A DNA stretch of 64,000 nt from Candidatus Delongbacteria bacterium (GTDB lineage Bacteria > UBA4055), in contig JAFGVM010000016.1 of assembly GCA_016937995.1 (NCBI GenBank), forward strand, positions 62,001 through 126,000. The letters are read 5' to 3'. This document shows positions 26,365 to 53,296 of this stretch, piece by piece. A model generated the notes under the pieces. The model had not been told where the DNA came from. It worked only from the letters and a program-made list of their open reading frames with translations, and searched no databases. A program made the position numbers and the translations under genes. Every line of letters begins with the position of its first letter. Position 1 is the first letter of the stretch.

Positions 26365-26390
26365 TTATATCCTCTTTTGCTACAAATTTT

Positions 26391-26909: not shown

Positions 26910-26990
26910 TCTTTTTTTTGGTAAATAATTAAATTTTTGGAACTTTTTTGTCAAAAAATGAAAAAAAATGAAAAAATAATAAAATTCGTT

Positions 26991-28406: not shown

Positions 28407-28442
28407 TCGAATTCCTTGGTAGATAAATGGAACAACTTATGT

Positions 28443-28820
28443 TTACTCGAATTCGTTGAGTTCTTGAATTCTATCGAGTATTAATAGTAACTCTTTGTTT
28501 CTAAATGGCTTTGCTATGTATCCCTCAGCACCAAGATTCAACGCTTCCGTCTGGGTATACTCTTCTGCAAATCCGGTCATTATCACTGCAGAAATACTTT
28601 TATGATCCTCCCTGATGGCTTTCAGAAGTTCTATTCCGTCCATTTCAGGCATTTTCATATCGGTAATAACAATGTCAATATGGTCATTATTAATAACCTT
28701 TAAAGCTTCAATTCCGTTAGTGGCAGTTTGACATGCATAATCATTGATCAGGAAAAAATTCTTTAACATGTTGAGCATATTTTCTTCATCATCAACCACA
28801 AGTATCTTGAGATTGCTCAT
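28443..28820 (-). CDS. Single-domain response regulator (CheY-like)
   Basis: The 125 residues form only a receiver domain: acidic pair D10/D11, phosphoacceptor Asp54 (IVITDMKMPEMDG), Thr82 (VIMTG) and Lys104 (YIAKPF). There is no output domain, so it acts through protein contacts or a phosphorelay. No histidine kinase gene lies in the window. It precedes the SpoIID-like gene by 36 bases and has its own promoter, so the two may be coexpressed. Confidence 0.95.
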   Translation of the reverse strand: MSNLKILVVDDEENMLNMLKNFFLINDYACQTATNGIEALKVINNDHIDIVITDMKMPEMDGIELLKAIREDHKSISAVIMTGFAEEYTQTEALNLGAEGYIAKPFRNKELLLILDRIQELNEFE

Positions 28821-28876
28821 AAATTCCCTCTATTTTAATATACCTATCACTCTACTTAGAAGTTTATTTTTTTGTT

Positions 28877-28905
28877 AATATACCATTGACTATGGTTAAA
28901 ATCAA
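28877..28905 (-). promoter_or_regulatory. Promoter of response regulator gene with dyad in spacer
   Basis: Minus strand: TTGATT (28905-28900), 17 bases, TATATT (28882-28877). The spacer holds an inverted repeat ACCAT-N5-ATGGT, a possible regulator site between the boxes. The start codon is at 28820. Confidence 0.65.
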
Positions 28906-28939
28906 CATTAAAAAACTTTTGCAAATATATCCTGTAAAA

Positions 28940-29539
28940 CTATTCTTTGGCAATCTTTTTTATCACTAATTCAACTACGTATTTACACAACGACCCTATG
29001 AAAATGCCAAGTATAAATCCGCTAATAACATCTGTTGGATAGTGTACTCCCAGGTACATTCTTGATATACCAACTAATAATGCAATTGAAAGAAATAGCC
29101 AACTCCATTTTTTGTAGAAGAAACTCCATAGAACAGCTACACCCATTGCGTTTGAAGCATGAGATGAAACAAATGAATATGAACTTTTATAGCTGCTTAC
29201 CCCATCAGTTAACACCCAGATCGATCTACCTTTTTTCCAGAACCAGAGATCTGAAATTGTCTGACATGGTCTTGCTCTATGGAACAAAGGTTTGAATATT
29301 CTGCTTGAGATCAGATCTGTTAAAGCTATTGATAAACCTGTCGCTATTAGCATAATATAAACAGTTTTGACCAAGGTCATATTTTTTTCTTTATATCCTT
29401 TGATCAAAAGAACTACAGGAAAGATCAAAAATAGCAAAGCTGCTGATTTGCTTGAAAAAAACACGAATACCGGATTCAGAATATCTGAATGGATAGTCCT
29501 GTTGAAAAAAAATAATATCTGCTCATCAAAGTTATTCAT
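28940..29539 (-). CDS. PAP2-family membrane phosphatase
   Basis: This 199-residue protein has about five to six hydrophobic segments and the three PAP2 motifs: KPLFHRARP (K-x6-RP), FVSSHASNA (SxH variant of PSGH) and SRMYLGVHYPTD (SR-x5-H-x3-D). Family members remove phosphate from membrane lipids such as phosphatidic acid, PGP or undecaprenyl pyrophosphate at the outer face of the inner membrane; the substrate cannot be told from sequence. It starts directly after the HAD gene stop, in the operon headed by ychF. Confidence 0.92.
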   Translation of the reverse strand: MNNFDEQILFFFNRTIHSDILNPVFVFFSSKSAALLFLIFPVVLLIKGYKEKNMTLVKTVYIMLIATGLSIALTDLISSRIFKPLFHRARPCQTISDLWFWKKGRSIWVLTDGVSSYKSSYSFVSSHASNAMGVAVLWSFFYKKWSWLFLSIALLVGISRMYLGVHYPTDVISGFILGIFIGSLCKYVVELVIKKIAKE

Positions 29540-36262: not shown

Positions 36263-38863
36263 TTATTTTTTTATATTCTTTATTTTGCTTATAAGAAGGT
36301 CAGCAATACTCATATTATAGCCTTTAGATGAGAATAGTATTTTATTATTACTATCCGCCAGGATAACTATAGGATAAGATTCATCAGCAGTTTCCGGAAT
36401 AAGTATCTCACCCTGTTTCTGTATAATATTAACTGCCTCAATATTTTTCAGGTCATCATTATTTCTCAATTCAGTGTAAATAACGATAGAAGTTTCAAGT
36501 TCTTCAAATTTAGCAGCTTTTTCCAGTAACAGGTTCAACATTCTTTGAGTAGGCTCAGTAGATATTACCCCTCTTACCAGTACGATCTTATTTTTACTGT
36601 TGGATATTGATGAAGTAAGTGAATTTATTTTTTTGACAGCCTCATCCGATAATTCTGATGATATATCTATATATTCCTTTGGAGTGGTCAATTTTATAGT
36701 TATATCAGTATCCGTATTTCCAATATTCTTTATAACAACATTTGCATCTCCGTTTGAATTCCTCACACCTGCTTCAAGATATAAAAATTTATCATCCTGT
36801 TTCGGGAATGTGAGTATGTAATCCAATGAATCATTCTCACCGTCAAAGTATGAATATTGCAATACTCCTTTATCCAATTCCCCCATAAGAAAATTGTTCC
36901 ATGGATCAGCTTTCACCTTCTCATCATCTATGTATAATGACAGTTTCACTTTTCTATCTTCCGGTTTCTTTTTTTCTGAGACACTCTCCACTGTAATGAA
37001 TTCTTTTCCGTTAAAATATTCCAGTCTTCCTTTCCACTGGACCGGAACACCTAAAAGTTTTAGAGAACAATTGAGCAGTTTGATCCTGTAAAATTCCGGG
37101 ATGGATCTCATGTTAAGAATCTCTACGGGATTCAGTGATCCGGCATAATACTCATACACAAAATTACTGTCAACTTTGACCTTGGTATCCACCCATTTAA
37201 CTACATCTTTCACTGTAGTATTAATATTATATGAACGGAGATCTTTAATTTGATCATAAAGTTCAGTTTGCCAACCGTTCTGAGGCGGAGTTCCAGATTT
37301 CCATGTTACTCCGACAACATTACTGGTGAATACAGAATCAGGGATTATCTTTATGTATTTATTTTTCCCTTCGTAGTAAATATTCACTAGATCACTTATA
37401 GCTGTACTGTCAGGTATCTCATTCAATTCTTTTTCATCCCATTCTTCGATCATTGAAGTCAATATTTTCAATTTTGTTTTATTTGTTTTTAAACCTTTAT
37501 ATACTTTTAAGAATTCTGATGTGTTCTGTCCCAGAAGATCGCATTTTTCAAGAAAATGTTTTTGTCTTTTACTGAAAATGATCTGATCGTAATTTTTTAT
37601 ACTGTTATCAAAATAGTAAACAAAGTCGATCGTACGTTTAAAATTTTCAAATTTCATCTTTCTCTTGAGATCTGAAAGTTGATTTTTCAGGTCGAAAGTA
37701 TCTTTAAAATATTCTTTTTGAGTTTTATCATTTTCAAATTCAGAGTTGTATATCTGAAATTTAAAATTTAATTCCTCATCTATTCTTTCATTTCCATCTT
37801 TCAGAACTATCCTTATCTCAGCATCATTTTCAAGACTATTGAAAAGTGCGTAACCAAATTTAGACCTATCATCATAGGCCGTTATAAATACCGAACCCTT
37901 ACCCAGCGGGATCGAGACTTCTCCGAATTTATCCGTTCTGGCATCTATCAGAGGCATCAATCCTCCATATGAAACTGCGTAAAGCGTAACTAAAGCACCT
38001 TCTACCGGCTGACCAAGCTCATCATCTATCATTATCTTTGCATCATCGTACTTATCTGTATAATATTCAATAGAACTTAGAATCGTGGAGTTATCTTCGT
38101 ATTTAATTGTATTTTTCTCCTGATAATCTCCAAAAACTCTTGAAGTTATCAGTGATGCACGTAAAGTCGTATGGGAAAACCATGTTTTGTTTAAACTGTT
38201 GGCCAATTCACCCAGATATTTCCATCCGTCAGGTGTCCAAACTTCGACCCATGCATGATTATTGTCCGTAAAGTTCCAGAATGGTGCACCTGCGGATCTT
38301 ACCGGAATACCTACACTTCTCGCAGCTGCCATATAGAATATCATCATCTCTTCACACCTGCCCCAGCCTCTTTTGATCGTAGTTAAAGGTCCTTGGTCCC
38401 TCCCGTGAGTAGATTTATAGGTCATATGTTCATAAGCCCAGAAGTTTATAGCTATTGCAGCCTCTTCGATATTTGAAATATTTTCCACTACCGGCTTTAA
38501 TTCATCATAAAATTGTTTTCTCCAATTTTCAAAAGGTTCCTGTGAAGATCTTAATGGTAATACAAAATGCTTGAATATATTTTCATCATACTGTTTTGAA
38601 TACAAAAATTCTTTTGATCTTATTGCATATTCCACACTTTCCAGAATGTAAGCAGGTGTTAGTACAGCAAGGTCATTCGGAGATGAATTATTTAAAATGA
38701 ACTCAACATATTCCAGGGTTTTACCTTTTTGTTTATCGACCATTTCCAGCAATGATCTTTTATTTTTACCTGAATATTTGTTGATCTTTTCCACTGTGCT
38801 TTTTTCTAAAGCTGATATCGTTCCGAATATAACAATTAATGCGATTATTAAAATATTTTTCAT
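36263..38863 (-). CDS. Exported transglutaminase-like protein
   Basis: From the ATG at 38863 this 866-residue protein has a signal peptide (MKNILIIALIVIFGTISAL). A transglutaminase-like core lies at about 130-225, with catalytic-type Cys170 (RGWGRCEEM), His203 (NNHAWVEVW) and Asp212. It is followed by a short carboxypeptidase-regulatory-like repeat (PVEGALVTLYAVSYGG), then a long region with a second weakly similar unit and a C-terminal stretch that may be thioredoxin-like. An in-frame ATG 31 codons upstream would put a polar segment before the signal peptide and is less likely. Such proteins often act as proteases or amidases on surface proteins; the substrate is unknown. Confidence 0.8.
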   Translation of the reverse strand: MKNILIIALIVIFGTISALEKSTVEKINKYSGKNKRSLLEMVDKQKGKTLEYVEFILNNSSPNDLAVLTPAYILESVEYAIRSKEFLYSKQYDENIFKHFVLPLRSSQEPFENWRKQFYDELKPVVENISNIEEAAIAINFWAYEHMTYKSTHGRDQGPLTTIKRGWGRCEEMMIFYMAAARSVGIPVRSAGAPFWNFTDNNHAWVEVWTPDGWKYLGELANSLNKTWFSHTTLRASLITSRVFGDYQEKNTIKYEDNSTILSSIEYYTDKYDDAKIMIDDELGQPVEGALVTLYAVSYGGLMPLIDARTDKFGEVSIPLGKGSVFITAYDDRSKFGYALFNSLENDAEIRIVLKDGNERIDEELNFKFQIYNSEFENDKTQKEYFKDTFDLKNQLSDLKRKMKFENFKRTIDFVYYFDNSIKNYDQIIFSKRQKHFLEKCDLLGQNTSEFLKVYKGLKTNKTKLKILTSMIEEWDEKELNEIPDSTAISDLVNIYYEGKNKYIKIIPDSVFTSNVVGVTWKSGTPPQNGWQTELYDQIKDLRSYNINTTVKDVVKWVDTKVKVDSNFVYEYYAGSLNPVEILNMRSIPEFYRIKLLNCSLKLLGVPVQWKGRLEYFNGKEFITVESVSEKKKPEDRKVKLSLYIDDEKVKADPWNNFLMGELDKGVLQYSYFDGENDSLDYILTFPKQDDKFLYLEAGVRNSNGDANVVIKNIGNTDTDITIKLTTPKEYIDISSELSDEAVKKINSLTSSISNSKNKIVLVRGVISTEPTQRMLNLLLEKAAKFEELETSIVIYTELRNNDDLKNIEAVNIIQKQGEILIPETADESYPIVILADSNNKILFSSKGYNMSIADLLISKIKNIKK

Positions 38864-38956
38864 TCTTTTATCTCTTCGATTATAGTTTGTAACTTCTGAA
38901 TTTTTTATCACTTGATCTTGAGTACTAATATTATTCATTTTAATATTATTTTGCAA

Positions 38957-38985
38957 TAAAAAAAGGGAGTAAAAAACTCCCTTTT
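38957..38985 (-). terminator. Rho-independent terminator of the PorV-like gene/surface operon
   Basis: Stem AAAAGGGAGT/ACTCCCTTTT (38961-38970 with 38976-38985), 5-base loop, followed on the minus strand by a T-rich tract. It lies 19 bases after the stop codon at 39005. Confidence 0.85.
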
Positions 38986-39004
38986 ATTTCATTGATGAAA
39001 ATTT

Positions 39005-40021
39005 TTATTTCAGCTTATATCCGAATGTTATCATGTGAGTCATACCAAGATCACCCATATGTTTCCAACCATAATCAAGTTTCATTCCCATTGATTCCAT
39101 GTTGAAACCTATACCAAGTGTTGTACCCATCCAGTTAATTCCACTGTCTGAATAATCCAATTCAGGATCTGCCGGATCAGCGTTTTCAGGGAACTCAGCA
39201 TCGTCGCTTTTTACGATCCAGTACTCATCGTTATCAAATTTTCTGCCGAATCTTACAAAGAACATATTGTTGTAAGAGTATTCTAGACCAAGTGTCATAT
39301 ACTCACTGTTATCAGATGGGTGAGCAGCTTCTAATAGAACATCAAGCTTATTTACACCGTCTTCCAGAGGAGCATATCTAAGACCGAACACAAATAACAT
39401 AGGTAATGGTGTATCCTCATCAAAATAAGTGTAATTACCGCCAAAATTTCTGATGGACATACCAAATATTAAGGACTGCCATCCTGTATTATAGTAAGTA
39501 CCAACATCACCGGCAACAGTCATAGCCTGCTGATCAGCTAATCCTTCGCTCAAGAACTTCAGAGTTCCACCAACATAGAATTTTGGAGTTAACATTTGTG
39601 CATAGGAAGCTCCTATCATCATATCATATGCTCCAAATGTTCTACCTGTACCATCAGGGAATTCAACAGTTGTCTCATCCATATCCCCTGTTGTCAGATA
39701 AGCCATTTGCATACCCATACTTCCGTTTAATTGTGGTAATGGATAAACTACACCTGCATAACTGTACTGAATATCAGCCAGATACATGTTATGAGATGCA
39801 ACAAATTCCATTGATTTCAAATTCAACAGTCCTGCTGGATTGTAATACAAGGTCGATGCATCATCTGACAGACCAATAAATGCTCCACCCATTGCGAACA
39901 CTCTTGCGGTTACATCCATTTTTAAAAACGGCATACCTGATGTTCCGGCTTTATCCTGAGCCATAGTAACAGGTACAAAAACCATGATAAGCATCACGAG
40001 AATTAGCAGTTTTTTGTTCAT
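39005..40021 (-). CDS. PorV/PorQ-family outer-membrane protein
   Basis: This 338-residue protein has a signal peptide (LLILVMLIMVFVPVTMAQ) and starts its mature part with FLKMDVTARVFAMGGAFIGL, then SDDASTLYYNPAGLLNLKSM, the signature of the PorV/PorQ (UPF0164) family. The rest is a beta-barrel with alternating aromatic residues. In type IX secretion PorV shuttles substrates with C-terminal sorting domains from the translocon to the surface. It lies last in the operon whose members carry such domains, which fits that role. A strong hairpin stands between it and the gene before it, perhaps setting its expression level. Confidence 0.9.
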   Translation of the reverse strand: MNKKLLILVMLIMVFVPVTMAQDKAGTSGMPFLKMDVTARVFAMGGAFIGLSDDASTLYYNPAGLLNLKSMEFVASHNMYLADIQYSYAGVVYPLPQLNGSMGMQMAYLTTGDMDETTVEFPDGTGRTFGAYDMMIGASYAQMLTPKFYVGGTLKFLSEGLADQQAMTVAGDVGTYYNTGWQSLIFGMSIRNFGGNYTYFDEDTPLPMLFVFGLRYAPLEDGVNKLDVLLEAAHPSDNSEYMTLGLEYSYNNMFFVRFGRKFDNDEYWIVKSDDAEFPENADPADPELDYSDSGINWMGTTLGIGFNMESMGMKLDYGWKHMGDLGMTHMITFGYKLK

Positions 40022-40109
40022 TTTGTTTCCCCTTTGCTTTATTTTAATTTTTCATTTTCCATATTCTCTTACAGGAACTGTTTTTACAATCCCTGAAAGA
40101 AAACATAGA

Positions 40110-40139
40110 TTTAGACAGGCAGCTCCCTGCCTGTCTAAA
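40110..40139 (-). promoter_or_regulatory. Strong intercistronic hairpin
   Basis: A perfect 13-bp stem (40110-40122 with 40127-40139; TTTAGACAGGCAG/CTGCCTGTCTAAA) with a 4-base loop starts 12 bases after the stop of the 729-residue gene. No clear T run follows on the minus strand, so it may protect or process mRNA, or terminate weakly, rather than be a full terminator. Confidence 0.55.
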
Positions 40140-40151
40140 CAAACAACATGA

Positions 40152-42341
40152 TTATTTAGCTAAAACCATCTTCTTAGTTGATAAAATTCCGTTAACATCT
40201 AACTGATAGAAATAAACTCCTGAGTTTAATTTTGTTGCATCAAAATTAACTTTATGAAGTCCTTTAGCCATTTTGCCGTCAATTAATGAAGCAACTGTCT
40301 CACCGTTTGAGTTGAATACAGTAAGTTTAATATTTGCGTCATTCATTATATTGAAGCTGATCTCTGTACTTGGGTTGAAAGGATTTGGATAATTTTGCAT
40401 CAATTCAAAGTCCATATCAAGTGCAGTATGCTCTGATTGAATACCATCAGTCAAAGTTCCAGTGATCTTCCAAGCGTGTAAGAACTGCTGGTGGTCGAAG
40501 AAACTGTTTACAGGTGGTTCTAACGGGTTAGCTGCATCATAATATTGATTAGCTGCGTAAACCTCGATAGCACCTTCAGTAATTTTTCCGTTTGTAGTGA
40601 CTGTCCAACCTTCTTCATGAAGAGTATTTGTATTTGTCACGTTAGTTGCGTAGTAAAGATTGAAAGTTTTACCAGGTATGTAGTCAGTAACTTCTACATG
40701 ATCTTGATATTCCCAAGTGTCACCATCGTTTCCTGAAAAAGACATGAAACCGTCATCATAATATACTGTATCAGGTTCCGGCCACTCATTTAAAGTTGTT
40801 CTTCCAACAGGTCTGTCCAGCCAGGTTGCATAGATCTGACCGAATCCTGCATAACCTATCGCTAATACGTTGAAATTTGACCATACCCATTCAATATCAC
40901 CAGTGTCAAGACCAACTGAAGAAGCTACAAAATGAGCAGGGCTCCATTGTACACCTGTATCAGTTATTAGACCTCTGATATGATAATAACCAGCAACAAA
41001 ATCGTCATCGTTATCATATAACAGGTAACCAGCGTAATCACCCTGATAAGTTCCACCGAATACACGAACTAACAAGTGAACATAGTCATACTCTGTTGCA
41101 ACTGCTGAAATATTCCAGGTTATGAAAGGATCGTTCATTATAGTGACCATTGTGTCCGGAGGTGTAACTGAAGAATCGATCTCAGTATAAGTACTTCCGT
41201 ACCAGTCAAATAATTGCTTTGGATCCAATTGGAATAATCTTACATCACCGTGTGAAGTATCGTAATTCCAGTTTGGTGACCAGTCACCTGAAGAATCATC
41301 TCCACCCCAGTTAGTTGTATACATGTAACTGATCTTTGGGTTAAGATCAACTCTTGTTTCTACTGGTACCCATGCAGAATCAGGTGGTACAGTAGTTGAG
41401 TCAACTTCAGTCCAGATTGAATCAGCGATCATTACAAAGTCATCAACATCATTAGCCATTGTTACAGCAATACCTTTACCTGTACCGTTTCCGTAAATAT
41501 CCTTACAGTAAGCCCATGAAATGTCGTTCATTATTGTAAGACCGTTAGCATCGTTAGCACAGTCAAGATTTAATTCTGAGTAATCAGTCCATTCCCAGCT
41601 TGATGTAACTGCAGGGGTCATCGATCTACCAACTACACAGCCAAGTGTGAAATCTTCCATTCCAAGAAGGTCTTGGTTCCATGCCTGTGACCAGTAGTAA
41701 TATCCTGTTGCAGGATCATAAACTGTATCACCGGATCCTGTCCAAGCACCCGGAACAGTAGCTCCACCATCAGTAGCTGCAACTACACCAACGTTCCATG
41801 TAGAGAAGTTATATCCCCATGTTGCATCAGCAACAGCGAACATCGGATAAGCATCACTTGCTACACCGGTAGTAGTGTTATAATCATTGAATACTCCAAA
41901 GAAATATCCGTTTATGAAACCACAAGCATAAGGGTATCTTCCACCAGGATCTTGTGCAGGTGTCCAGTTGTTTGAAACGTCATAGATAACCTGAGCAGAG
42001 CTAAGTAAACTTGCTCCCTGCCAGTCACCGATAGTTCCACCGATTGTTCCTGAACCTGTTGCAGGATTTAATCTTCTGTAAATAGATCCTACCATTGGAA
42101 GTCCGGTTGTATTTCCCATGTCCCAAGATATCTTTCTGTTGTAACCCTGATACCAGCCATAACCGTTAGCTGATTTATCAAAGTAAGTACTCACTTGACC
42201 TGAGTAAGGTGTTTTTGCCATCATGGCTTTGTCATTCATAGATGGCTTGATCTGCCACTTACCGCCTTTAATTCCATTAACAGCGAACAATGGAACAGCG
42301 ATAAACAAAGCCAAACTAAGAATAGTCAGTTTTTTTACCAT
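40152..42341 (-). CDS. Secreted protein with C-terminal type IX-like sorting domain (paralogue of 32339-34471)
   Basis: This 729-residue protein has a signal peptide (LTILSLALFIAVPLFAVNG), an unrecognised Trp/Tyr/Asp/Gly-rich middle and a sorting domain (about 645-729) with LMQNYPNPFNPSTEISFNI and LNSGVYFYQLDV...KKMVLAK. It matches the 710-residue protein over most of its length, for instance YFDKSANGYGWYQG, YYWSQAWNQDLLGMED and GFGQIYATWLDRP. It has a strong AAAGGAGG ribosome-binding site and lies 40 bases after the lipoprotein gene, so it is probably in the TonB-receptor operon. Function unknown; a surface protein is likely. Confidence 0.85.
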   Translation of the reverse strand: MVKKLTILSLALFIAVPLFAVNGIKGGKWQIKPSMNDKAMMAKTPYSGQVSTYFDKSANGYGWYQGYNRKISWDMGNTTGLPMVGSIYRRLNPATGSGTIGGTIGDWQGASLLSSAQVIYDVSNNWTPAQDPGGRYPYACGFINGYFFGVFNDYNTTTGVASDAYPMFAVADATWGYNFSTWNVGVVAATDGGATVPGAWTGSGDTVYDPATGYYYWSQAWNQDLLGMEDFTLGCVVGRSMTPAVTSSWEWTDYSELNLDCANDANGLTIMNDISWAYCKDIYGNGTGKGIAVTMANDVDDFVMIADSIWTEVDSTTVPPDSAWVPVETRVDLNPKISYMYTTNWGGDDSSGDWSPNWNYDTSHGDVRLFQLDPKQLFDWYGSTYTEIDSSVTPPDTMVTIMNDPFITWNISAVATEYDYVHLLVRVFGGTYQGDYAGYLLYDNDDDFVAGYYHIRGLITDTGVQWSPAHFVASSVGLDTGDIEWVWSNFNVLAIGYAGFGQIYATWLDRPVGRTTLNEWPEPDTVYYDDGFMSFSGNDGDTWEYQDHVEVTDYIPGKTFNLYYATNVTNTNTLHEEGWTVTTNGKITEGAIEVYAANQYYDAANPLEPPVNSFFDHQQFLHAWKITGTLTDGIQSEHTALDMDFELMQNYPNPFNPSTEISFNIMNDANIKLTVFNSNGETVASLIDGKMAKGLHKVNFDATKLNSGVYFYQLDVNGILSTKKMVLAK

Positions 42342-42381
42342 TTTTTACTCCTCCTTTAAATTACACATTTTATTGTTAAGT

Positions 42382-44418
42382 CTATTTTTGCAAAGGATCA
42401 TCTTCAAGATTGAACCAGTTTATCATAGAAGTGAACAGATCACTTACTTTTCCTTCCGAATTATCCATGAAAACAAGCGGGAATCCGATATATGCCGTAC
42501 GGAATACATCTCCTTCTGAAACATATCTTGTTGCAATAGCACCTGATTTTCTGTAAACATCTCCACTCAGATTTGTTGTTGCTGTTGCAGCAGGGTTACG
42601 CCATTTCAGATCATGGAACAGTGTATCAGTTCCATCAACTTCGAAAGTAAGATCTGAATTGTAATCAGTCGTTGGAAGATCATAAATTGACTTATACTTC
42701 AGTACGATCTCTCCTTTATAAGCTTCAAATACTGGAATACCTGTTAAGACTGTACCGTTTTCTTTAAGTGAGAACTCAAAGATACTTCCTGCAGGACCGG
42801 GATAATTCTTCCAGTACTTATTTACCTGTGCACTGTCTACTTTCAGTTCAACGATACCTGCATCAGTGATATGATCATATTTTGTAACACCGATAAAATC
42901 GTAATTGTCCTTTTTGTAATAAGTCGCAGGAAGCAATGGATGACTCGCATCGTACAGGAACTGAGAGAAGAAACTCTTTGATTCTCCTGTTGAATAAGAA
43001 TAGATCCCGAAATAGTTGTAGAAGAACGTACACATATCTCTGTTCAGCAGAGCAGCGTTATCGAATACATCCCTTACAGGATCTTCATATTTATTTACAT
43101 ACAGATCGTTAAGCAGGATCGCTGAATGACCTATGATCATTACTTTACCACCGATGTTCATGTAATCTATAAGCTGTTTCTTATAACTTGCATAAGAGAT
43201 ACCTGAAGATTGCGATCTGTCCTCTGTTCCGATTATTACAAGTCTGTACTTACTCAATATTTTCAAACTTGGTTGATATAACTGATCAACAGGTACCGGT
43301 GCAAAATCTACAACATCGTAATCCTGTAATAACATCTCTGAACTGTCCGGGTATAGAACATCATAATCTGCATGATAACCTGCATCCTGAAGATATTCTT
43401 CATACATTGCTTTAACTTCAACACCATCAGGGTTACCTGTGAACTGAAGATAATCAACAGAATTGAACTTAGCATCATCAGTATCATCAACATAAAGGAT
43501 ACCGTGATTCAATTGAGGAGCAAATACCGGGAAGTTCACTGTTGCATGATTTTCAGACTCTTCTAAAGCATCATCTCTTACCCAAACTCTGAATGAGAAG
43601 TTAGCTTCTGATTTACCCTCCGGCATATTATCAAAAAGCAAACTTGAGAACTGAACAGAAAGGTTACTTATTGACCATCCCGATTCAGCCAAAGTGTCGA
43701 TATCATAGAAATCACCGCTTAAATTAGTATCGATAGAACACAATTGATATTTGAACTCAAGATCTACTTCAGGTCCGTCCGGATCCTCTCCCATCCATCT
43801 AAAATCTATCGGTTTCCAGAAAGATGTCTCTCTCTTTAGAACCATTTGAGCTGAGTCAGTACCGATCGTGAACCAGTACTGGTCAAATCCGTTCACACCA
43901 AATTTTTGAGAATTGACCATAGGATGTTTAGGAACTTTATTCGTTCTTCCGAATATTTTTGATACAATACCTGTTTCACCGTCCTTATCATCAACACCGT
44001 ATAAGAAAAACTTTGAATAAACAATTTCTCTTTTCACTTCTATAGCCTCAAGAATATCAATGTAAGTGGTGCTGTCAACGAACATTATATCCGCATTAAG
44101 TTTTGCGAACGGCATTGAAATATCAACATAAGAATTTGCTGTTCTTGTCCACAGTGTATCAGCAAGTTCTGTAGCTGCTTCAGCATTGGTCATTGTTGTA
44201 TCAGTTGTCATACAATAATAGTATGTCATACTGGTACCATCCTGATCATTGCCATACCACTGAACTCTAGTTTCTTTGTTACTGATGATATCTGAGGTAT
44301 CATAGATCATCAGCCTTGGATTTGTATTGGCCGGCATTTCGCCCGTAATGTCCTGGGTGCAGGAGAAAAAGAGCATTGATGCGAGTAATACAATAAATAA
44401 TAACATTATTTTTTTCAT
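42382..44418 (-). CDS. Large lipoprotein of unknown function
   Basis: The 678-residue protein has a lipoprotein signal (MLFFSC, Cys20). Early on it has ETRVQWYGNDQDGTSMTYYY, like a beta-sandwich repeat that occurs again as FRWMGEDPDGPEVDLEFKYQ. The middle holds HGILYVDDTDDAKFNSVDYL and, later, a segment with RLVIIGTEDRSQSSG and GGKVMIIGHSAILLND, which looks like a Rossmann-type (flavodoxin or ThuA-like) fold with alternating strands and helices. I cannot name the family. It lies 12 bases after the 1115-residue gene and 40 before the 729-residue gene, so it probably works with the TonB receptor at the surface. Confidence 0.75.
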   Translation of the reverse strand: MKKIMLLFIVLLASMLFFSCTQDITGEMPANTNPRLMIYDTSDIISNKETRVQWYGNDQDGTSMTYYYCMTTDTTMTNAEAATELADTLWTRTANSYVDISMPFAKLNADIMFVDSTTYIDILEAIEVKREIVYSKFFLYGVDDKDGETGIVSKIFGRTNKVPKHPMVNSQKFGVNGFDQYWFTIGTDSAQMVLKRETSFWKPIDFRWMGEDPDGPEVDLEFKYQLCSIDTNLSGDFYDIDTLAESGWSISNLSVQFSSLLFDNMPEGKSEANFSFRVWVRDDALEESENHATVNFPVFAPQLNHGILYVDDTDDAKFNSVDYLQFTGNPDGVEVKAMYEEYLQDAGYHADYDVLYPDSSEMLLQDYDVVDFAPVPVDQLYQPSLKILSKYRLVIIGTEDRSQSSGISYASYKKQLIDYMNIGGKVMIIGHSAILLNDLYVNKYEDPVRDVFDNAALLNRDMCTFFYNYFGIYSYSTGESKSFFSQFLYDASHPLLPATYYKKDNYDFIGVTKYDHITDAGIVELKVDSAQVNKYWKNYPGPAGSIFEFSLKENGTVLTGIPVFEAYKGEIVLKYKSIYDLPTTDYNSDLTFEVDGTDTLFHDLKWRNPAATATTNLSGDVYRKSGAIATRYVSEGDVFRTAYIGFPLVFMDNSEGKVSDLFTSMINWFNLEDDPLQK

Positions 44419-44430
44419 TTCAAAGCTCCG

Positions 44431-47400
44431 TTATTTAATAATTACAAATTTCCCAATGAACTCGTAGCTGTCATCATCCACATCTTTCACACTGTAAAGA
44501 TATATTCCGGATACTACAGCCTGATCGTTATCGTTGATAAGGTCCCAGGCAGCACCGTATTCACCATATTGATATCTTGCATCAACTCTTGCATTACCGT
44601 TATGACCGATAGTCTTAACAAGGTCACCTGCCAAAGTGTATATCTTAATAACTGATCTTAAAGGTATGTTCATGAAAACTATCTTTCTATCCTGCTCTTT
44701 CCAGTCATCAGCACCATCAACATTTTCCCAGCCTAAAGATTCATAGTCTGTATCTCCTCTGTAAGGATTTGGTACTACAACAACATCCTCTGTTCCCAAT
44801 AGTTTTGTAGGGATTACAGAAGATCCATTAATTGCAGGGTTTGACTTAAGTGCCGGAGTTCCGGACTTAGGATCACCGAAGTCTGAAGAAGTTACAGCTA
44901 TATAGCTTTCTTTTGCATATAATTTGTTTTGAAGGACGAATTTATACTTGTAATAATCCACATCAACACTGTCTATCGTTCTTGTTGCCGGTGTAGCTGT
45001 ATATTCATACATTCCTTCCTTAATGTGACTTGCAAGAATATCTCTGTTATCTGCAAAAGGTACCAGTTCATAAAAATTACCACCTGAAGTAATTTGAACA
45101 GGGAATGGATTTCCCGCTGCAAGACTATCCGCAATTTCCTGTGCGGAATAAGGAGATTCAAGATAATCACCTTCTTCATCAACTCTTTCGTAGATGTAGT
45201 TATCTTTGTCAACACTGAAGATCTCTACATAGTTAAGAGAATTTGAATTAGGAGAAACCTGGATCTGATATCCTTCAAAATCCTTTACTCTGGTGAATGG
45301 ATCTAAAAATTCCTCCGGACCTGAATAAGACTCAGTACCGTCCTCTTTCAGGAAGAATTCCTTAGAAGCCCACTCAACTACAACATCATTATTTTCATAA
45401 CTTATCTTTATCTTTGGTGAAGGCGGTGGCGGCGGTCCTGTAAAATCAGGAACTCCGTCTCCTTTATCTATTCTGCCATTATCAAAACCGTATCTTACCC
45501 ACTCACCCGGTGTAATTCCTGGGTATGGATTCAATAGATTATCATATACCACCATATATCCATAACCTTTATCACCGCCACCTTCCTGATTTCCGGTAAT
45601 TCCGTATACTCCCTCAGGATCTACAGCTGGAAGTAATGTTTTCATTCCGTAAGGAAGGAAATGATCTTCATCCACTCCGGTGAATCCCCAAGGATCTACA
45701 AAAGAAGTAGTGAAAGCATCGATCTCAGAGTTTCCTTCAGTATCATCATCATCAGGTCCACCGTATTCACTTACTGGTGTTGTCCACCAGCATTCTGTTG
45801 TAACTTTAGTGTTCGCATATATACCGTCAGATCCGACATCCTCTCCATACCATCCGTCACCTTTTTCTTCATCAAATTTGTCCACTATGGTATCATGCAT
45901 TGGAATATCGTAAACTCTTTCAGCCCATACAACGTTATAGAAAGCATCATACCATCCTTTGTCATAATACGCAGGATCTATTCCAGAATCAGGATATCTT
46001 GCAGTATCATCACCGGTTGCATAATTCGGGTCCTGATCTAGTGAAGTATGGAAATTATCATTAACAATGAATGCTAAAGTAAGTTTCAGAGAATCACCAT
46101 GGGCGAATTCCCAGACAGTTTTACTTTGAAGAACATCATCCAGGATACCGTCAAGATTTCTATCAATAGCAACATTTACCATTTTCTCGGTTCCCAAAGG
46201 TCCGAATGAAAGTATATATTTTGTATCAGCACCGTTCGCAATATCATTTCTTGTTTTAAGATCACCGTCATGAACATCATCAGCTGAAGGTAAAGGTTCA
46301 GAAGGATCAAGCCATTCCTGCCATTTTTCCGCCTGGGCATAAGGTGTTCCTATCATGTATTCAGGATCTGAGAACTCATGATTGTCAACATCAATTATAT
46401 CATACTGATTATAATCGAATTCATCATTTGACATTATCATAAATTTACCTTTATCACCTGCAGGTCTTCCCTCAACTCTACCGCCTGCCAATGGAACAGT
46501 TCCGTTATATTCATCATCCTGGTTGTAATCATCATAACCTTTCTGGAATGGAGTAAGATCATACTTCCATGGCAACGCCAAAAGACTTGGTGAAGGGTCT
46601 GAAGGATGGTCTTCCAAAGGTCTTGGGTGAAGACCTGTTTTCCAGTGTGGTCCCCAGTCTAAAGCTTCATCACCCTGCTCTGCAATATACATGTTGAACG
46701 CGTATCTCAGGTTCGGATTAGGATTTCTAAGTACCCTAACAGTTACAATACCTGTCGCACCATCAAGAGGAGCACCTGCACCCGGTTCACCGGTCGCTGT
46801 TGTTCCCTGAGGTCCTGTATAGTTCCTTCCATCATTATCAGCCGCCCATGCCAGGTTAAGCTCAACGGTCTTTTGAGTATTTGTTGCAGGATCGATATAT
46901 CCGTCCCACTTCTGTATAAATCCGCCAAGATCATCAGCTGAATTAGCTTCCCATTCTCCTCCGATCATTCCGATATCACAATCCAGATAAACACCCATGA
47001 AGAAATCATAAAGGTCTTTTCCTTCTTCACCTCTATTATATAATGTATAGTCGATTATGATGAATTTTTGTGCATAATCATAAGACCAGGCATAGCTTTT
47101 CTGTCTTACCTCGATACCCAATGGAATATGCTCTCTGTTGTCATATTCATCCATACCGGTATAAGGTGTTCTCTGAACAAGTTTGTCAGTAAACATCGTA
47201 TTGAACTGCTCTTCAGCTGTTGCAGCAGGATCATATACCTCTTCGAAAAGGCAGCTTATTCTTCCTTCAACATTTGAAGTTTCATACATTCTTCCAAGGA
47301 TAGAACCTCCTTCATCCTCATCGAATTTTACCGGCCAACACTCAGTAGGCATCGGATTTCCTGACCATCCTTCGTACGCTGTGGTCGCTAACGGACCCTG

Positions 47401-47778
47401 GAACACTTTAGCGGCGATATCTGTTCCATCCACACTAACATTTACATCAGCGGAATCCTTATATCCACCGAACAGCAGTGCTCCCGCGAATAAAAAATCA
47501 GTTCCTGAACCACCTGGCATCTCGCCGGAAACAGCATTCTTACCTGTACAGGGGTCATCATAAGCACTCGGATTACCGAAATAACCCATATTGTTCATAT
47601 TCAGCCATAAAAGACCAGCTCTGTGCACCCTGTTGTTAGGTGTAGGTATGATGGCCTTGGAGTCCTGTCCTGTTTGCAAACCGTCAACACTGCTCGGAGC
47701 GGTCTGAGCGGATCTCGAGAACGCCATCGTAATAAATGCGATCAGTAGTATTGAGGTTATTTGCTTGTAGACTTTCAT
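44431..47778 (-). CDS. Large secreted protein with FlgD/type IX-like C-terminal domain
   Basis: The 1115-residue protein has a signal peptide (QITSILLIAFITMAFSRS) and a mainly beta, Asp/Gly/Tyr-rich sequence. The C-terminal domain (about 1030-1115) has VVVPNPYRGDTDYESLGWEN, NIPLRSVIKIYTLAGDLVKT and SGIYLYSVKDV...GKFVIIK, the pattern of FlgD-like/type IX sorting domains, though with NPYRGD in place of NPFNPS. Residues about 835-930 resemble a fibronectin type III module (EGYQIQVSPNSNSLNYVEIF). It lies 40 bases after the TonB receptor and 12 before the lipoprotein, so it is probably a partner surface protein. Function unknown. Confidence 0.8.
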   Translation of the reverse strand: MKVYKQITSILLIAFITMAFSRSAQTAPSSVDGLQTGQDSKAIIPTPNNRVHRAGLLWLNMNNMGYFGNPSAYDDPCTGKNAVSGEMPGGSGTDFLFAGALLFGGYKDSADVNVSVDGTDIAAKVFQGPLATTAYEGWSGNPMPTECWPVKFDEDEGGSILGRMYETSNVEGRISCLFEEVYDPAATAEEQFNTMFTDKLVQRTPYTGMDEYDNREHIPLGIEVRQKSYAWSYDYAQKFIIIDYTLYNRGEEGKDLYDFFMGVYLDCDIGMIGGEWEANSADDLGGFIQKWDGYIDPATNTQKTVELNLAWAADNDGRNYTGPQGTTATGEPGAGAPLDGATGIVTVRVLRNPNPNLRYAFNMYIAEQGDEALDWGPHWKTGLHPRPLEDHPSDPSPSLLALPWKYDLTPFQKGYDDYNQDDEYNGTVPLAGGRVEGRPAGDKGKFMIMSNDEFDYNQYDIIDVDNHEFSDPEYMIGTPYAQAEKWQEWLDPSEPLPSADDVHDGDLKTRNDIANGADTKYILSFGPLGTEKMVNVAIDRNLDGILDDVLQSKTVWEFAHGDSLKLTLAFIVNDNFHTSLDQDPNYATGDDTARYPDSGIDPAYYDKGWYDAFYNVVWAERVYDIPMHDTIVDKFDEEKGDGWYGEDVGSDGIYANTKVTTECWWTTPVSEYGGPDDDDTEGNSEIDAFTTSFVDPWGFTGVDEDHFLPYGMKTLLPAVDPEGVYGITGNQEGGGDKGYGYMVVYDNLLNPYPGITPGEWVRYGFDNGRIDKGDGVPDFTGPPPPPSPKIKISYENNDVVVEWASKEFFLKEDGTESYSGPEEFLDPFTRVKDFEGYQIQVSPNSNSLNYVEIFSVDKDNYIYERVDEEGDYLESPYSAQEIADSLAAGNPFPVQITSGGNFYELVPFADNRDILASHIKEGMYEYTATPATRTIDSVDVDYYKYKFVLQNKLYAKESYIAVTSSDFGDPKSGTPALKSNPAINGSSVIPTKLLGTEDVVVVPNPYRGDTDYESLGWENVDGADDWKEQDRKIVFMNIPLRSVIKIYTLAGDLVKTIGHNGNARVDARYQYGEYGAAWDLINDNDQAVVSGIYLYSVKDVDDDSYEFIGKFVIIK

Positions 47779-47818
47779 TAATCAGTCTCCTAATTATTTT
47801 AAATTTTATTATTCGTAT

Positions 47819-50800
47819 CTACCAAGTGTAGCTGACGCCAAATCTGTAATGTCTTCTTTCTCCGATATGTGAAGGATCAGCAAATCTTTCAGCATAATTA
47901 ACGTTTTGAGGATTATTATCGTAATACTCCTCACTTCTTGCCCACCAGCTTCCGGTATCTGCCCATACTTCCTCAACATTGATCTTGTTGAAGATGTTAT
48001 AAACATTAAATTCAAGCTTAAGGTTTCCGTAAGAAACATTGTTCTCACCGGTAAACGCGAAAGTTTTACTGAATTTAATATCAGTACTTGAAGTCCAAGG
48101 CAATCTTTCAGAGTTCGTTTCGATATCCTCTTCAGCTACTTCATAGTGGTAATATTCCACACTTGGAGTAAAAGGAGTACCGCTTCCGAAACTTGTGTTC
48201 ATACCAAGGGTCCAGTTATCAGTGTATGGAAGATTGAAAAGGGTCTCTCCCTTTCCGTAAACAAGAGTGAAGTAAGTTGACAATGAATGTCTTTCATCCC
48301 AGATCAACGGGAATTCTTTTACTTCAAGCTCTTCATCGTCCATATTTGACTCTTCGTCAGATGATTTACCATAAGCATAAGATAATGTATAAGAAAGACC
48401 CCATAGGTAATGATCTCTCAAACTTCTGTCTACCGAGATCTCAACACCTCTTGACTTACCGTAATCGGAGTTGTAGTAAACTGTTGCATCTGTTACACCG
48501 TATTCGTAAGTTTTTGTATTGATCATGTCGTAAATGTCTTTAAAATAACCGGTTACATCTATAAGGTAAGAACCCAACTCGTTCACAACACCCAGTTCAT
48601 ACTGAACATTTCTTTGGTAACCAAGGTTCATATTACCGAATAATGGATCAGCACCAACAGAGGTATTAGGTGCAAATACCTGGGTATAAGTTGGTTTTTG
48701 GTATAAATGCCCGTAAGAGAAAAATAGTTTTGATGTTTCTGAAATAGAGTGTGAAATTCCAAATCTAGGACTTATTGCAAATATCGTAGGTTCTAATTCT
48801 TCCTCATAACCGAATGCCTGTGCATCATACTGCTCTTCATAGTAATCTATCGCATCCTGATCAAGAGTTCTCATATCAAGTCTGATACCCGCATTAACAA
48901 CAAGGTCTTCAAACTCCATTTTATCCTGAACGTACATCGAGAATTCAGTTGGAGAATATGCATAAGAAGTTTTCTCTTCACCGTTATACGGATAAGGATC
49001 CCCCTCTAAGAACTGACTTGTAGCTTCGAAGTAATTGATGTAAGGGTTGACGATACTGTAATAATCAAGGTTGTTCAACGAAAGCTCAAAACCTGTCTTG
49101 ATCATGTGGAACTTATTGATCTGGTTCGTATAGTTACCTTTGAACTTCAATACTGTATTGTCGAACTTTTGGTAAGTTATCCCGTCAAGATAGTAATCCG
49201 GCAACAGGAATCCTGCATTTGTATTCCAAGCACCATCATAGTTATAGTCAGAAAAAGATTCTCCATCGTCGTATAGACCATTCGGTGTATCATATGTATC
49301 GTTATCATTAAAATCTTCCCAGGTCGAATAAGAATCCATAACAAGATCTTTATAGTTTGGAATACCCTGATACATATCTTCAGGAGCTCTGTATACCGAG
49401 TATGAACCCACATATTCCACATAGCCACAACCAGGAATGTTGGAAGGAGCATGACCGGGAGTCCAGCCAAGGTTACTGTAATCGGTATCTGAACCTGATT
49501 GTCTCCAGCTTGAATAAGCCTCGAACTCATCAAATCTGTTGTTCCAAGGTCCGTCATAAACATCATTGAACCTTGGGATTGTCTGCTCAACTGATCCCAG
49601 AGAAGACCTTAGATCAGCATATTTTTCTGCAGGATAAGTGATCCTGATCTTCCAGTCCTCGACTTCGAAAGAAACCGGGTTATCGTTAATATCAAAACCA
49701 TTATAAGTTCTTGTTACTTTCCAAGTTAGTGTATCTGCCTCGTAGAACTGGCTATTAGCATGATAATCGACCTCACCCCAGAAGTCAGGGACAGTTGTAG
49801 TGTTGTCGGTCATAAGACTGTCGTCACTTACTCTTTTTGTCTGAATTACAAATTCTGATATTTGACCTTCATCCCATACATCATTCGCAAGTAGCTGTAT
49901 TTTATATTGTGTTCCGGTGTAGATCAATCTTTTATGATCCACGAAAGGTTCACCTGTATCAAGGAATCTGTCTCCGTCAACAAAGTGCTCATAAGAACCG
50001 ATCTGTTCATCATCACTGTAAATAAACTGATCATAGTGACCGCTTAAGTTCTCATCAATATAACCCTCGACAACCGAGCTATTATATATCTGGTCAGTCA
50101 CAGGATTTCCTAAAGCATCAATTGCAAATCCGGTATAAGTTTTTCCGGTATCCCAGTAATCCCATGCATTGTTATCGTTGGAATCATACAGATAGTCACC
50201 ATCGTATTGTCCATTACCGTTGGCATCCACGTAAGTCTCAAGTGCTCCACCATCCTGCTCCTGACCGTTATCCCAGTTTCCATCTTGGTCGAGATCTGTG
50301 AAATACTCCCTGTCAAAGAAACCGTTTTGGTTATTATCAACATAACCCTCTGCATCACCACCATCACGCTTAAAATTTCTAATAAGATCGTCTCTCATAA
50401 ATGAGAAATTATCAAGATCAACTGTGAAAACAAACTCGTCAGGTAATTTACCGCCTGGAAGTCTTTCAAAATCCCTGTTATAGTAAGAGAAAATGAAATC
50501 GTAATAACTCTGTTGGCTAAGTGTATGCTTAAAGTTCACGTTGAACACAGTTACGTCAGTTATAAGCTCATCAGCTGTTTGAGGAGTATATCTGTACAAC
50601 CAGCTGAAATTATAATCATGTGTTCTGGATTTTGTGTACGATGCACTTAGGTTCATCATTGGAGTTATCTGATATGCGGATTTAAGTATGATATTAAAAT
50701 TGTTCTGTCTTTTCTGAGCTATCTCAAATCCGAAATTTGTTAGATCATAATCACCATATTCGTAATAATCACCTTCTGGATCACCAAGTTCTCTGTAAGT

Positions 50801-51664
50801 GTTTCCAAAACCGTTCTGAGTAGTAAAATCTGAAGCTATATAATAAGTCGGCTTTTCACTCATACCAGGAATAGGTATCGGACCGCTTAGACTGAACTCA
50901 CCTCTTGTATAATCAAGTCTGCTGTCACCAAGGAAAGTATCCGTAGTATATTTTGCATGTCCTGAAGTTTTTTCCTGATCACCGATCTTCATTACAATGT
51001 TAACACTTCCTGAAAGTGCATCACCGTATTCCGCATCAGGAATACCTTTTTGTATATTGAATGATTCAACGTTTGCAAAGTTAATAGAAACCGGAGCATC
51101 TTTGGCACCGGTAGGGTCACCAACAGAAATACCATCGATAACGTAGTTAACCTCACCTGATCTACCACCCCTGAAGTGAAGTTCACCGTCAGCGTCTTTT
51201 TTGATACCGGCCTGGCTGCTTAAAACATCTCCAACCTCTGTAACGGCCTGAGTTTCCATTGTTCCCATATCAACGCTTCTGACGGAGGTCGTAACGTCCA
51301 TTTCCACTTTTTCTTCCTGAAATACTTCGATCTCAAGCTCTTTAATTTCAATTGCTTCTGAAATTAATTTAAAATTTTGTGAAGTTGTTAAACCTACTCT
51401 TACCTTCACATTTGAATAAGTTTTCGGGGAGTAACCGATGTACTCACATTTCAATTCGTAAGTTCCGGCTCTGACACCGATGATGTAGTAATAACCATCC
51501 TCATCCGTTTCAGCACCCCACGTTTTACCTACTACCATGATATTAGCACCTTCTAACGGCTCACCATTCTCATCAGTTACAATACCTTTGATCTTTCCGG
51601 TAGTTCCAGAGAACAGAATCGAGGAGAAGAGTGCGATCATCAAAATGACGATACTTCTTTTCAT
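47819..51664 (-). CDS. TonB-dependent receptor with carboxypeptidase-regulatory-like N-terminal domain
   Basis: From the ATG at 51664 (MKRSIVILMIALFSS) this 1281-residue outer-membrane protein has a signal peptide, then a CarboxypepD_reg-like domain (GKIKGIVTDENGEPLEGANI...IGYSPKTYSNVKVRV, about 23-110), a plug (about 125-230, with GGRSGEVNYVIDGISVGDPT) and a large barrel. In the first long loops (about 425-510 and 810-850) there are Asp/Asn/Gly-rich calcium-type loops such as DNNQNGFFDREYF, DANGNGQYDGDYLY. GGAG lies 7 bases before this ATG, whereas the ATG at 51676 overlaps that site. It opens the five-gene operon; the ligand is unknown, and no glycan enzymes lie nearby to suggest one. Confidence 0.93.
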   Translation of the reverse strand: MKRSIVILMIALFSSILFSGTTGKIKGIVTDENGEPLEGANIMVVGKTWGAETDEDGYYYIIGVRAGTYELKCEYIGYSPKTYSNVKVRVGLTTSQNFKLISEAIEIKELEIEVFQEEKVEMDVTTSVRSVDMGTMETQAVTEVGDVLSSQAGIKKDADGELHFRGGRSGEVNYVIDGISVGDPTGAKDAPVSINFANVESFNIQKGIPDAEYGDALSGSVNIVMKIGDQEKTSGHAKYTTDTFLGDSRLDYTRGEFSLSGPIPIPGMSEKPTYYIASDFTTQNGFGNTYRELGDPEGDYYEYGDYDLTNFGFEIAQKRQNNFNIILKSAYQITPMMNLSASYTKSRTHDYNFSWLYRYTPQTADELITDVTVFNVNFKHTLSQQSYYDFIFSYYNRDFERLPGGKLPDEFVFTVDLDNFSFMRDDLIRNFKRDGGDAEGYVDNNQNGFFDREYFTDLDQDGNWDNGQEQDGGALETYVDANGNGQYDGDYLYDSNDNNAWDYWDTGKTYTGFAIDALGNPVTDQIYNSSVVEGYIDENLSGHYDQFIYSDDEQIGSYEHFVDGDRFLDTGEPFVDHKRLIYTGTQYKIQLLANDVWDEGQISEFVIQTKRVSDDSLMTDNTTTVPDFWGEVDYHANSQFYEADTLTWKVTRTYNGFDINDNPVSFEVEDWKIRITYPAEKYADLRSSLGSVEQTIPRFNDVYDGPWNNRFDEFEAYSSWRQSGSDTDYSNLGWTPGHAPSNIPGCGYVEYVGSYSVYRAPEDMYQGIPNYKDLVMDSYSTWEDFNDNDTYDTPNGLYDDGESFSDYNYDGAWNTNAGFLLPDYYLDGITYQKFDNTVLKFKGNYTNQINKFHMIKTGFELSLNNLDYYSIVNPYINYFEATSQFLEGDPYPYNGEEKTSYAYSPTEFSMYVQDKMEFEDLVVNAGIRLDMRTLDQDAIDYYEEQYDAQAFGYEEELEPTIFAISPRFGISHSISETSKLFFSYGHLYQKPTYTQVFAPNTSVGADPLFGNMNLGYQRNVQYELGVVNELGSYLIDVTGYFKDIYDMINTKTYEYGVTDATVYYNSDYGKSRGVEISVDRSLRDHYLWGLSYTLSYAYGKSSDEESNMDDEELEVKEFPLIWDERHSLSTYFTLVYGKGETLFNLPYTDNWTLGMNTSFGSGTPFTPSVEYYHYEVAEEDIETNSERLPWTSSTDIKFSKTFAFTGENNVSYGNLKLEFNVYNIFNKINVEEVWADTGSWWARSEEYYDNNPQNVNYAERFADPSHIGERRHYRFGVSYTW

Positions 51665-51739
51665 AGTTGGCTCCATTGTTTATTAATTAAGTCTTTATTT
51701 TTTTAATAATAACCCTGCCTTCGTGTCAAGGTCTGTGAT

Positions 51740-51768
51740 AATATAGTGTTATGAAAATAAAATTGCAA
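51740..51768 (-). promoter_or_regulatory. Promoter of the TonB receptor operon
   Basis: Minus strand: TTGCAA (51768-51763), 17 bases, TATATT (51745-51740). The predicted leader is about 65 bases, with GGAG before the ATG at 51664. A second TTGACA lies closer to the gene and may form an alternative promoter. Confidence 0.65.
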
Positions 51769-52066: not shown

Positions 52067-53296
52067 ATGCTGTCATCAAAAAATTTATCATCGGTAAGAT
52101 TTTACCTGTTCATCCTTTTAATGATCACAAATATTTTTTCTCAGGAGACCGGAATCGTTAAATCCCTCGTTGACAGCAAGACCGGCATCACATTCAACAC
52201 CTTCCGGAGTGATTCTACTGAAACTGTATTTTATGAAGTTAAAATAGACGGAGGACTTGTTTATGATTCTCCGAAAAATAATGCAGAGCTTGTATATTCA
52301 ATGGACAAAAACTCTATCGTCGAATTTCTAGAGGTAGGACCAAAGAAAAATTTTGTTAAGATAAGGCTTGTGGACACTCCCGGAAATTTTGTAGAAGGCT
52401 GGGTAAGGAATAATACTTTATCAAAAACAAAGCTCTACGGCAGGTCATTTATAGCATTTTCTAAAGAAAGTGGTGAAAAAAAAATGATCGAAAAATTATT
52501 CAATCCCAACTGGATCAACATGACCGGGCAGAAACTATACTTTGGAGAAAATTTACAGGAAAATGCCTGCATCATAATGAACAAAGGAGATGTTGTTTAT
52601 ATAGATTCACTGGCAAATGGAATTGCAAAAGTAAAATATTTAAAGAGTGGCGGAGTTTACTCGACCGGCTATATAAAAACAGAAGCTTTATCTTCACTTG
52701 CTGTCATCGACAGTTCAAGAACAGATTTTGATGATCTGTATAATATGATAGATCCACTGGTGTTAGCTCATGACCTGAATAAAAGCGGCTTTATCTCTTT
52801 CACCGGAATGATTATCTCTGATGAGATCCAAAAAAGCATAAATGAAGATAAGATATGCAGAGAGGTCGGCCAGGACTCGCTTATGTATAAATTCACCTAC
52901 AGTGAGAATGTAAACGACATAAAAAAAATATTCATCCGAAAATCAGATAAACCTGAACTACGTTACGCAATGTACAGGATCCTGCCTGATGAAAATATTA
53001 TAACCAGAGCTGACACGATAAAATGTAAAGTTATTGAAATAGTACATACTCCGAAAAGCGCATCAATATCATTGAAGAACATTGAAGAGACAGAGATCAC
53101 AAATGAGATCTCGAAGTTCTATGTTCATCATTTGGATAATTTTGATATGGATATTGTTTTTCAGAAAGAAACAAATGAATATTTCTGGGCATATAAAAAG
53201 GATCTAGCCACAGGGGAATATCTGGAGAAAAATTATAAGCCTACCAAGGTTGTCAAAAGAGTAACCGCTTTTAAAAAATACGATCTTGAAAAATAG
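52067..53296 (+). CDS. Exported protein with SH3-like repeats
   Basis: The 409-residue protein has a signal peptide (VRFYLFILLMITNIFSQ). Two SH3-like beta units can be traced: about 58-115 (GGLVYDSPKNNAELVYSMDK...VKIRLVDTPGNFVEGWVRNN) and about 150-205 (GQKLYFGENLQENACIIMNK...IAKVKYLKSGGVYSTGYIKT), each with the GW/GY near the end typical of bacterial SH3 domains that bind cell-wall peptides or proteins. The last half has no motif I recognise. It is convergent with the ABC-2/CPBP gene, with only 2 bases between the stop codons. Confidence 0.75.
   Translation: MLSSKNLSSVRFYLFILLMITNIFSQETGIVKSLVDSKTGITFNTFRSDSTETVFYEVKIDGGLVYDSPKNNAELVYSMDKNSIVEFLEVGPKKNFVKIRLVDTPGNFVEGWVRNNTLSKTKLYGRSFIAFSKESGEKKMIEKLFNPNWINMTGQKLYFGENLQENACIIMNKGDVVYIDSLANGIAKVKYLKSGGVYSTGYIKTEALSSLAVIDSSRTDFDDLYNMIDPLVLAHDLNKSGFISFTGMIISDEIQKSINEDKICREVGQDSLMYKFTYSENVNDIKKIFIRKSDKPELRYAMYRILPDENIITRADTIKCKVIEIVHTPKSASISLKNIEETEITNEISKFYVHHLDNFDMDIVFQKETNEYFWAYKKDLATGEYLEKNYKPTKVVKRVTAFKKYDLEK

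Follow-up and report, generated by a model that had tools for sequence, protein, structure and literature searches.

The stretch of DNA analysed here (the window) comprises positions 62,001-126,000 of contig JAFGVM010000016.1 (assembly GCA_016937995.1) of Candidatus Delongbacteria bacterium, and all coordinates below follow the numbering of this 64-kb window. Its minus strand harbors, from 51676 to 39005, five genes arranged head to tail, beginning with those for a TonB-dependent receptor (TBDR), a 1115-aa protein (P1115) and a 678-aa lipoprotein (LIPO), and followed by those for a 729-aa protein with a type IX secretion system (T9SS) sorting domain and a barrel of the PorV/PorQ family (PORV). 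An earlier, sequence-only reading of the window had described a one-strand set of five genes with gaps of 40, 12, 40 and 130 bases in operon order, which the coordinates bear out:

47819-51676, minus strand: TBDR gene, 1285 aa
44431-47778, minus strand: P1115 gene, 1115 aa, secreted protein
42382-44418, minus strand: LIPO gene, 678 aa, surface-type lipoprotein
40152-42341, minus strand: gene for the 729-aa protein; signal peptide, T9SS type A sorting domain
39005-40021, minus strand: PORV gene, 338 aa, PorV/PorQ-family outer-membrane barrel

Evidence on the function of this operon comes from the predicted folds of two of its products. LIPO carries a lipobox cysteine (Cys20) that is invariant among 24 homologues, and its structural model (mean pLDDT 74.9) comprises two immunoglobulin (Ig)/fibronectin type III (FN3) domains (residues 30-301) and a C-terminal ThuA/class-I-amidotransferase-like domain (304-678). 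The model aligns with the ThuA-like structure 4jqs (VIA-align Z 14.4) and, through its second Ig domain and ThuA-like part, with chain 8aa2_G of the levan utilisome (Z 11.2, root-mean-square deviation 5.4, 268 residues aligned). The surface glycan-binding protein (SGBP) of the Bacteroides thetaiotaomicron levan utilisome, SGBP-lev, consists of two Ig-like domains and a C-terminal domain similar to ThuA according to DALI (PMC7618045). As modelled, LIPO shares the three-domain fold architecture of this levan-binding protein, and the sequence-only description of the lipoprotein as odd has to be given up.

The AlphaFold model of P1115 (pLDDT 83.6, pTM 0.83) displays a supersandwich of the galactose-mutarotase/glucodextranase-N type (residues ~44-780), an FN3-like region (782-992) and a C-terminal domain (CTD) resembling those of T9SS type A substrates (997-1115). 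The supersandwich is similar to domain N of glucodextranase (1ug9; VIA-align Z 16.9, root-mean-square deviation 2.8, 231 residues aligned), and also resembles the N domains of glycoside hydrolase (GH) families GH94 and GH116, polysaccharide lyase family PL26 and aldose-1-epimerase-like proteins. Because LIPO presents an SGBP-lev-like architecture and P1115 a supersandwich of the kind found in sugar enzymes, the modelled folds point towards uptake of a glycan-type ligand. The operon had been noted for its lack of glycan enzymes, and indeed it encodes no GH, but the folds of LIPO and P1115 suggest a glycan link all the same.

The receptor displays the CarboxypepD_reg (residues 29-104), plug (126-223) and TonB_dep_Rec barrel (724-1228) domains of Pfam. 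Its membership in the SusC family was considered and rejected, since it scores 55.9 bits against a TIGR04056 cut-off of 368, with the match limited to the N-terminal 183 model positions, and no receptor in the host genome reaches the SusC/RagA cut-off. In agreement with the sequence-only reading, no operon protein matches a SusD family of Pfam, and neither SusD_RagB (PF07980) nor SusD-like_3 (PF14322) yields a match in the host and 12 other genomes, of which eight belong to the same genus or family as the host; the same models do detect the Bacteroides control. The host genome (2.75 Mb, 97% complete), which groups with genomes named Candidatus Delongbacteria, carries SprA, PorU, two ExbD genes and two TonB genes. 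These T9SS and TonB/ExbD components lie outside the window operon, so that the term self-contained, previously applied to it, is too strong.

Taken together, we propose, at a probability of roughly one half, that the operon encodes a utilisome-like, TonB-dependent uptake complex that operates without SusD, with LIPO and T9SS-exported proteins as its outer subunits and a PorV paralogue as shuttle or anchor. In such a complex, P1115 and the 729-aa protein would cross the inner membrane via Sec and the outer membrane via SprA, guided by their C-terminal domains. PORV would receive the CTD of P1115 and either deliver this protein or stay with it as an anchor in the outer membrane, in the manner of SprF-like barrels with their cognate Type B substrates. 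The ThuA-like domain of LIPO and the supersandwich of P1115, positioned over TBDR, would catch a large and probably carbohydrate ligand, replacing the SGBP and the SusD lid, and TBDR would then take it in with energy from TonB/ExbD. The nature of the substrate, the assembly of the subunits into a complex and import as the direction of transport are all inferred here. The proposed arrangement resembles the levan and dextran utilisomes of B. thetaiotaomicron, composed of SusCD, SGBP and GH, in the joint encoding of a TonB-dependent barrel and a surface lipoprotein combining a pair of Ig domains with a ThuA-like domain. It differs from them in lacking SusD and GH, in a receptor that falls below the SusC/RagA cut-off and in the addition of proteins with a T9SS-type CTD and of a PorV-family barrel.

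The sorting domains and the PorV-family barrel tie the operon to the T9SS. Of the two sorting-domain proteins originally proposed, the 729-aa protein is recognized by profile, its domain (residues 651-726) scoring 36.4 bits with PF18962 (cut-off 27) and 37.6 bits with TIGR04183 (cut-off 23). That of P1115 is visible only in structure comparison: the protein has no Pfam match at all, no match to TIGR04183 or PF18962 at E values up to 1 and no credible hit in a sequence search against the PDB. Structurally, residues 997-1115 adopt the Ig-like fold of C-terminal sorting domains and align to the CTD regions of PorZ (5m11, Z 9.7) and PorU (6za2, Z 8.6) with 22-24% identity. In this domain an Asn-Pro pair is invariant, and 64 of 66 homologues retain Lys1110. 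A highly conserved lysine of Type A CTDs contacts PorV in the translocon (PMC10994853), and we infer that Lys1110 is its equivalent. PORV, in turn, belongs to the PorV/PorQ family (NF033709, 183.3 bits, cut-off 90) and does not reach the equivalog cut-offs for PorV, PorQ or PorV2, with 70.5 bits against 250 for PorV proper (NF033710).

A secreted CTD protein encoded beside a barrel that may collect and place it is reminiscent of Flavobacterium johnsoniae SprB/SprF, a Type B substrate with its PorP/SprF partner, but the CTD is here Type A-like, resembling PorZ and PorU, and the barrel is of the PorV/PorQ rather than the PorP/SprF family. The combination of a PorV/PorQ-family barrel with CTD-bearing surface proteins likewise recalls the T9SS attachment complex (PorV, PorQ, PorU and PorZ), from which the operon is set apart by a barrel below the equivalog cut-offs, by its coupling to a TBDR and by the location of PorU on another contig, near other PorV/PorQ-like genes. 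In this latter region (C78:13344-15097 and 25986-29240), two PorV/PorQ-like genes and PorU are found within 16 kb and probably make up a T9SS attachment locus of their own, apart from the operon PORV.

The pairing of a PorV-like barrel and an extracellular lipoprotein in one conserved, single-copy locus also raises the question of an accessory complex for outer-membrane biogenesis, analogous to the canopy of the Bacteroidota β-barrel assembly machinery (BAM; BamG, BamH-K), in which BamG, a FadL/PorV-like protein, and surface lipoproteins lie over BamA. Like that canopy, the operon places a FadL/PorV-type barrel and a surface lipoprotein beside another barrel, and the extracellular loops of BamG, a FadL homologue, bind a surface lipoprotein (PMC12578637). 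We nevertheless regard this explanation as very unlikely. Membership of PORV in BamG was rejected (14.8 bits with NF053685, against a cut-off of 250) in favor of the PorV/PorQ family, no BamA is encoded in the operon, where TBDR is a canonical plugged receptor, and P1115 carries a secretion CTD and has several solo paralogues.

Conservation of the operon was examined in other genomes, using for the wider survey profiles built in this analysis for the partner genes. Genomes of the same family, such as those with loci L056-L059 and L060, share this gene set, with its order unchanged or almost so. A further sorting-domain protein often joins the combination TBDR-P1115-PORV-LIPO, which is found again in LCP-89 (L105, L106) and in a Caldithrix-named genome (L121), as well as in Zixibacteria (L128, L141, L155, L156) and UBP14 (L143). 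All four genes are also present in Gemmatimonadetes (L125, L150), with LIPO on the opposite strand, and TBDR, P1115 and PORV in Hatepunaea/Electryoneota (L114) and Cloacimonetes (L134), where LIPO was undetected by profile. The overall order is TBDR-P1115-(729)-PORV-LIPO, with small variations, across several phyla. Counting distinct P1115 genes flanked by three or more genes upstream and six or more downstream, 14 of 26 have a same-strand TBDR gene no more than three genes upstream; PORV accompanies 10 of these 14, LIPO also 10, and both together 8. The background, 125 genes located at least eight genes away from P1115, contains no TBDR, no LIPO and a single PORV. Conservation of gene order is thus far above background, and an accident of a single genome can be discarded. 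The original idea of a surface assembly or uptake system holds as regards a conserved and coherent surface module, and fails as regards the oddness of its lipoprotein and the lack of a glycan link. No described system of this kind in Delongbacteria, Zixibacteria, Calditrichota or Gemmatimonadota, and no locus of such composition, was found in the literature searched, in line with the earlier impression that it was undescribed.

The distribution of P1115 could also be accommodated by a secretion or assembly module, in which an Oar-type receptor would aid export or assembly while P1115, LIPO and PORV formed a structural surface layer or an adhesin. Oar, a TonB-dependent transporter of Myxococcus xanthus, is needed for secretion of PopC (PMC6434023), and TBDR shares with Oar the succession of CarboxypepD_reg, plug and barrel. 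The occurrence of several solo P1115 paralogues per genome, some in tandem, is more suggestive of an abundant surface family than of a receptor subunit, and the single-copy window operon has neighbours that are conserved in Delongbacteria. Nonetheless, the presence of T9SS core genes and of a T9SS-type CTD on P1115 makes a separate exporter unneeded, and the layout of the receptor is common among nutrient transporters and dominant in Bacteroidetes. Oar, moreover, is encoded with its own Ton system, and what is available of its description mentions no PorV or SGBP-like partner. As it further leaves the SGBP-like and sugar-enzyme-like folds unexplained, a secretory role appears rather improbable.

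A different possibility is that the complex imports a non-glycan ligand, such as a peptide, a metal chelate or a calcium-bound polymer, the ThuA-like domain and the supersandwich being generic binding folds. TBDR contains four D-x-[DN]-x-[DN]-G motifs, resembling calcium loops, against 0.25 in shuffled sequences. Three of them lie between plug and barrel, and the cluster at residues ~447-490 is conserved: operonic homologues from various phyla carry similar ones at that position. The adjoining gene for a transglutaminase-core protein in Delongbacteria and the absence of GH nearby would also fit such a ligand. Against it stand the carbohydrate-type folds of two core subunits and the accessory proteins of distant operons, which include β-helix lipoproteins of the pectate-lyase/NosD type (Pfam Beta_helix/NosD), together with Ig-like sorting-domain proteins, some of them also with a β-helix, and small tetratricopeptide-repeat lipoproteins. 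We consider uptake of a non-glycan ligand unlikely. Since export is already provided for by the T9SS, PORV does not match the BamG model and two core subunits have sugar-associated folds, we regard all three alternatives as less likely than the proposed utilisome-like complex.

Several observations weigh against the proposed utilisome-like complex. Sequence searches with LIPO against the PDB gave no credible hit, a profile search against PDB sequences returned no link to SGBP-lev, and the acidic surface-export signal following its lipidated cysteine is weak. Fold comparison detected no (α/α)6 catalytic barrel in P1115, although the Foldseek and VIA lists do not hold every fold and a missing enzyme match is not evidence of inactivity. 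The supersandwich occurs in non-sugar enzymes as well, copper amine oxidases being among the fold matches of P1115. No GH family or sugar catabolism gene was found by Pfam in the operon, and no GH in the immediate neighbours scanned. TBDR and PORV lack close paralogues in the host genome (the best-scoring paralogue of PORV is 29% identical), where the operon is single-copy, and its conserved neighbours in relatives are unlike the typical variable polysaccharide utilization loci. Finally, T9SS Type B substrates have dedicated PorP/SprF barrels encoded alongside, whereas known Type A substrates all share one PorV (PMC12618676), so that a PorV-type barrel reserved for a Type A-like CTD would be a novelty.

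If the operon does encode such an uptake complex, it would provide a testable case of a PorV-family barrel devoted to one Type A-like substrate, as well as a fold and a candidate role for the large, Pfam-less P1115 family and its many paralogous copies. Little is known about the import of large substrates by candidate phyla, many of which seem to degrade polymers; a conserved candidate importer could then be named for such phyla, and SusD would not be the sole way to cap a TonB-dependent receptor. A bolder and doubtful extension is that, in several of the phyla carrying it, the module is the counterpart of SusCD, in which the T9SS builds part of the importer, T9SS-exported P1115 with its mutarotase fold, rather than a lipoprotein, serves as the lid over the receptor and the PorV paralogue as its permanent anchor.

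The host genome contains five copies of P1115, counting C47/C81 as one gene cut at a contig end, and several are present in its relatives. The four paralogues (C66, C75, C79 and C47/C81; L022-L026) are 53-65% identical over the matched part; two are solo, that of C79 is paired with a LIPO paralogue bearing a longer N-terminal part, and that of C47/C81 is apparently truncated by the contig end. In a quick tree of P1115, each major clade contains TBDR-linked copies, solo copies often group by themselves, and the window P1115 falls, with strong support, among copies that are linked or paired with LIPO. With linked copies in every major clade, this tree does not support the notion of solo copies as remnants of decayed operons. 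In some Delongbacteria loci (L066 on G006:C10, L069 and L068), two to four P1115 paralogues stand in tandem with no TBDR. A gene of roughly 390 aa starting MQYIKRELSGKL, which by eye has the appearance of a DUF4143-type ATPase, lies between P1115 copies in L066, and a similar gene adjoins P1115 in L037. P1115-family genes in L112, L119 and L153, from records titled Acetofilamentum sp. and Desulfuromonas sp. SDB, group outside those phyla and possibly stem from misnamed bins.

Additional features were identified within and around the operon:

40140-40109, minus strand: the stronger of two hairpins, 14 pairs with a weak T tail, between the gene for the 729-aa protein and PORV
38985-38961, minus strand: terminator-like hairpin (10 pairs, T-rich tail), just 3' of PORV, ending the five-gene set
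36263-38956, minus strand: secreted transglutaminase-core protein (Pfam PF01841), 897-aa open reading frame with a TTG start, likely start about 38863

The hairpin downstream of PORV is congruent with the terminator that had been placed at the end of the operon, with the hairpin scan as a whole at chance level. The hairpin preceding PORV is a possible attenuator or processing site and may set a separate expression level for this gene. A promoter had also been placed at the front, and promoter-like sites are indeed present upstream of TBDR (51898-51871, 10/12; 51768-51740, 9/12), but such sites are no commoner in the region than in shuffled sequence (58 vs 55.9) and the promoter is unproven. 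A riboswitch or other leader RNA 5' of TBDR was discarded, as an Rfam search of the region returned none. The transglutaminase-core gene, located beyond the terminal hairpin, also trails the operon in the Delongbacteria relatives L056-L059. On the upstream side, the operon is neighbored by genes for a 409-aa protein with a weak SH3-like match (52067-53296, plus strand) and a 644-aa ABC-2 permease/CPBP protease fusion (53299-55233, minus strand), and several Delongbacteria genomes have neighbours of similar size on that side of the operon.
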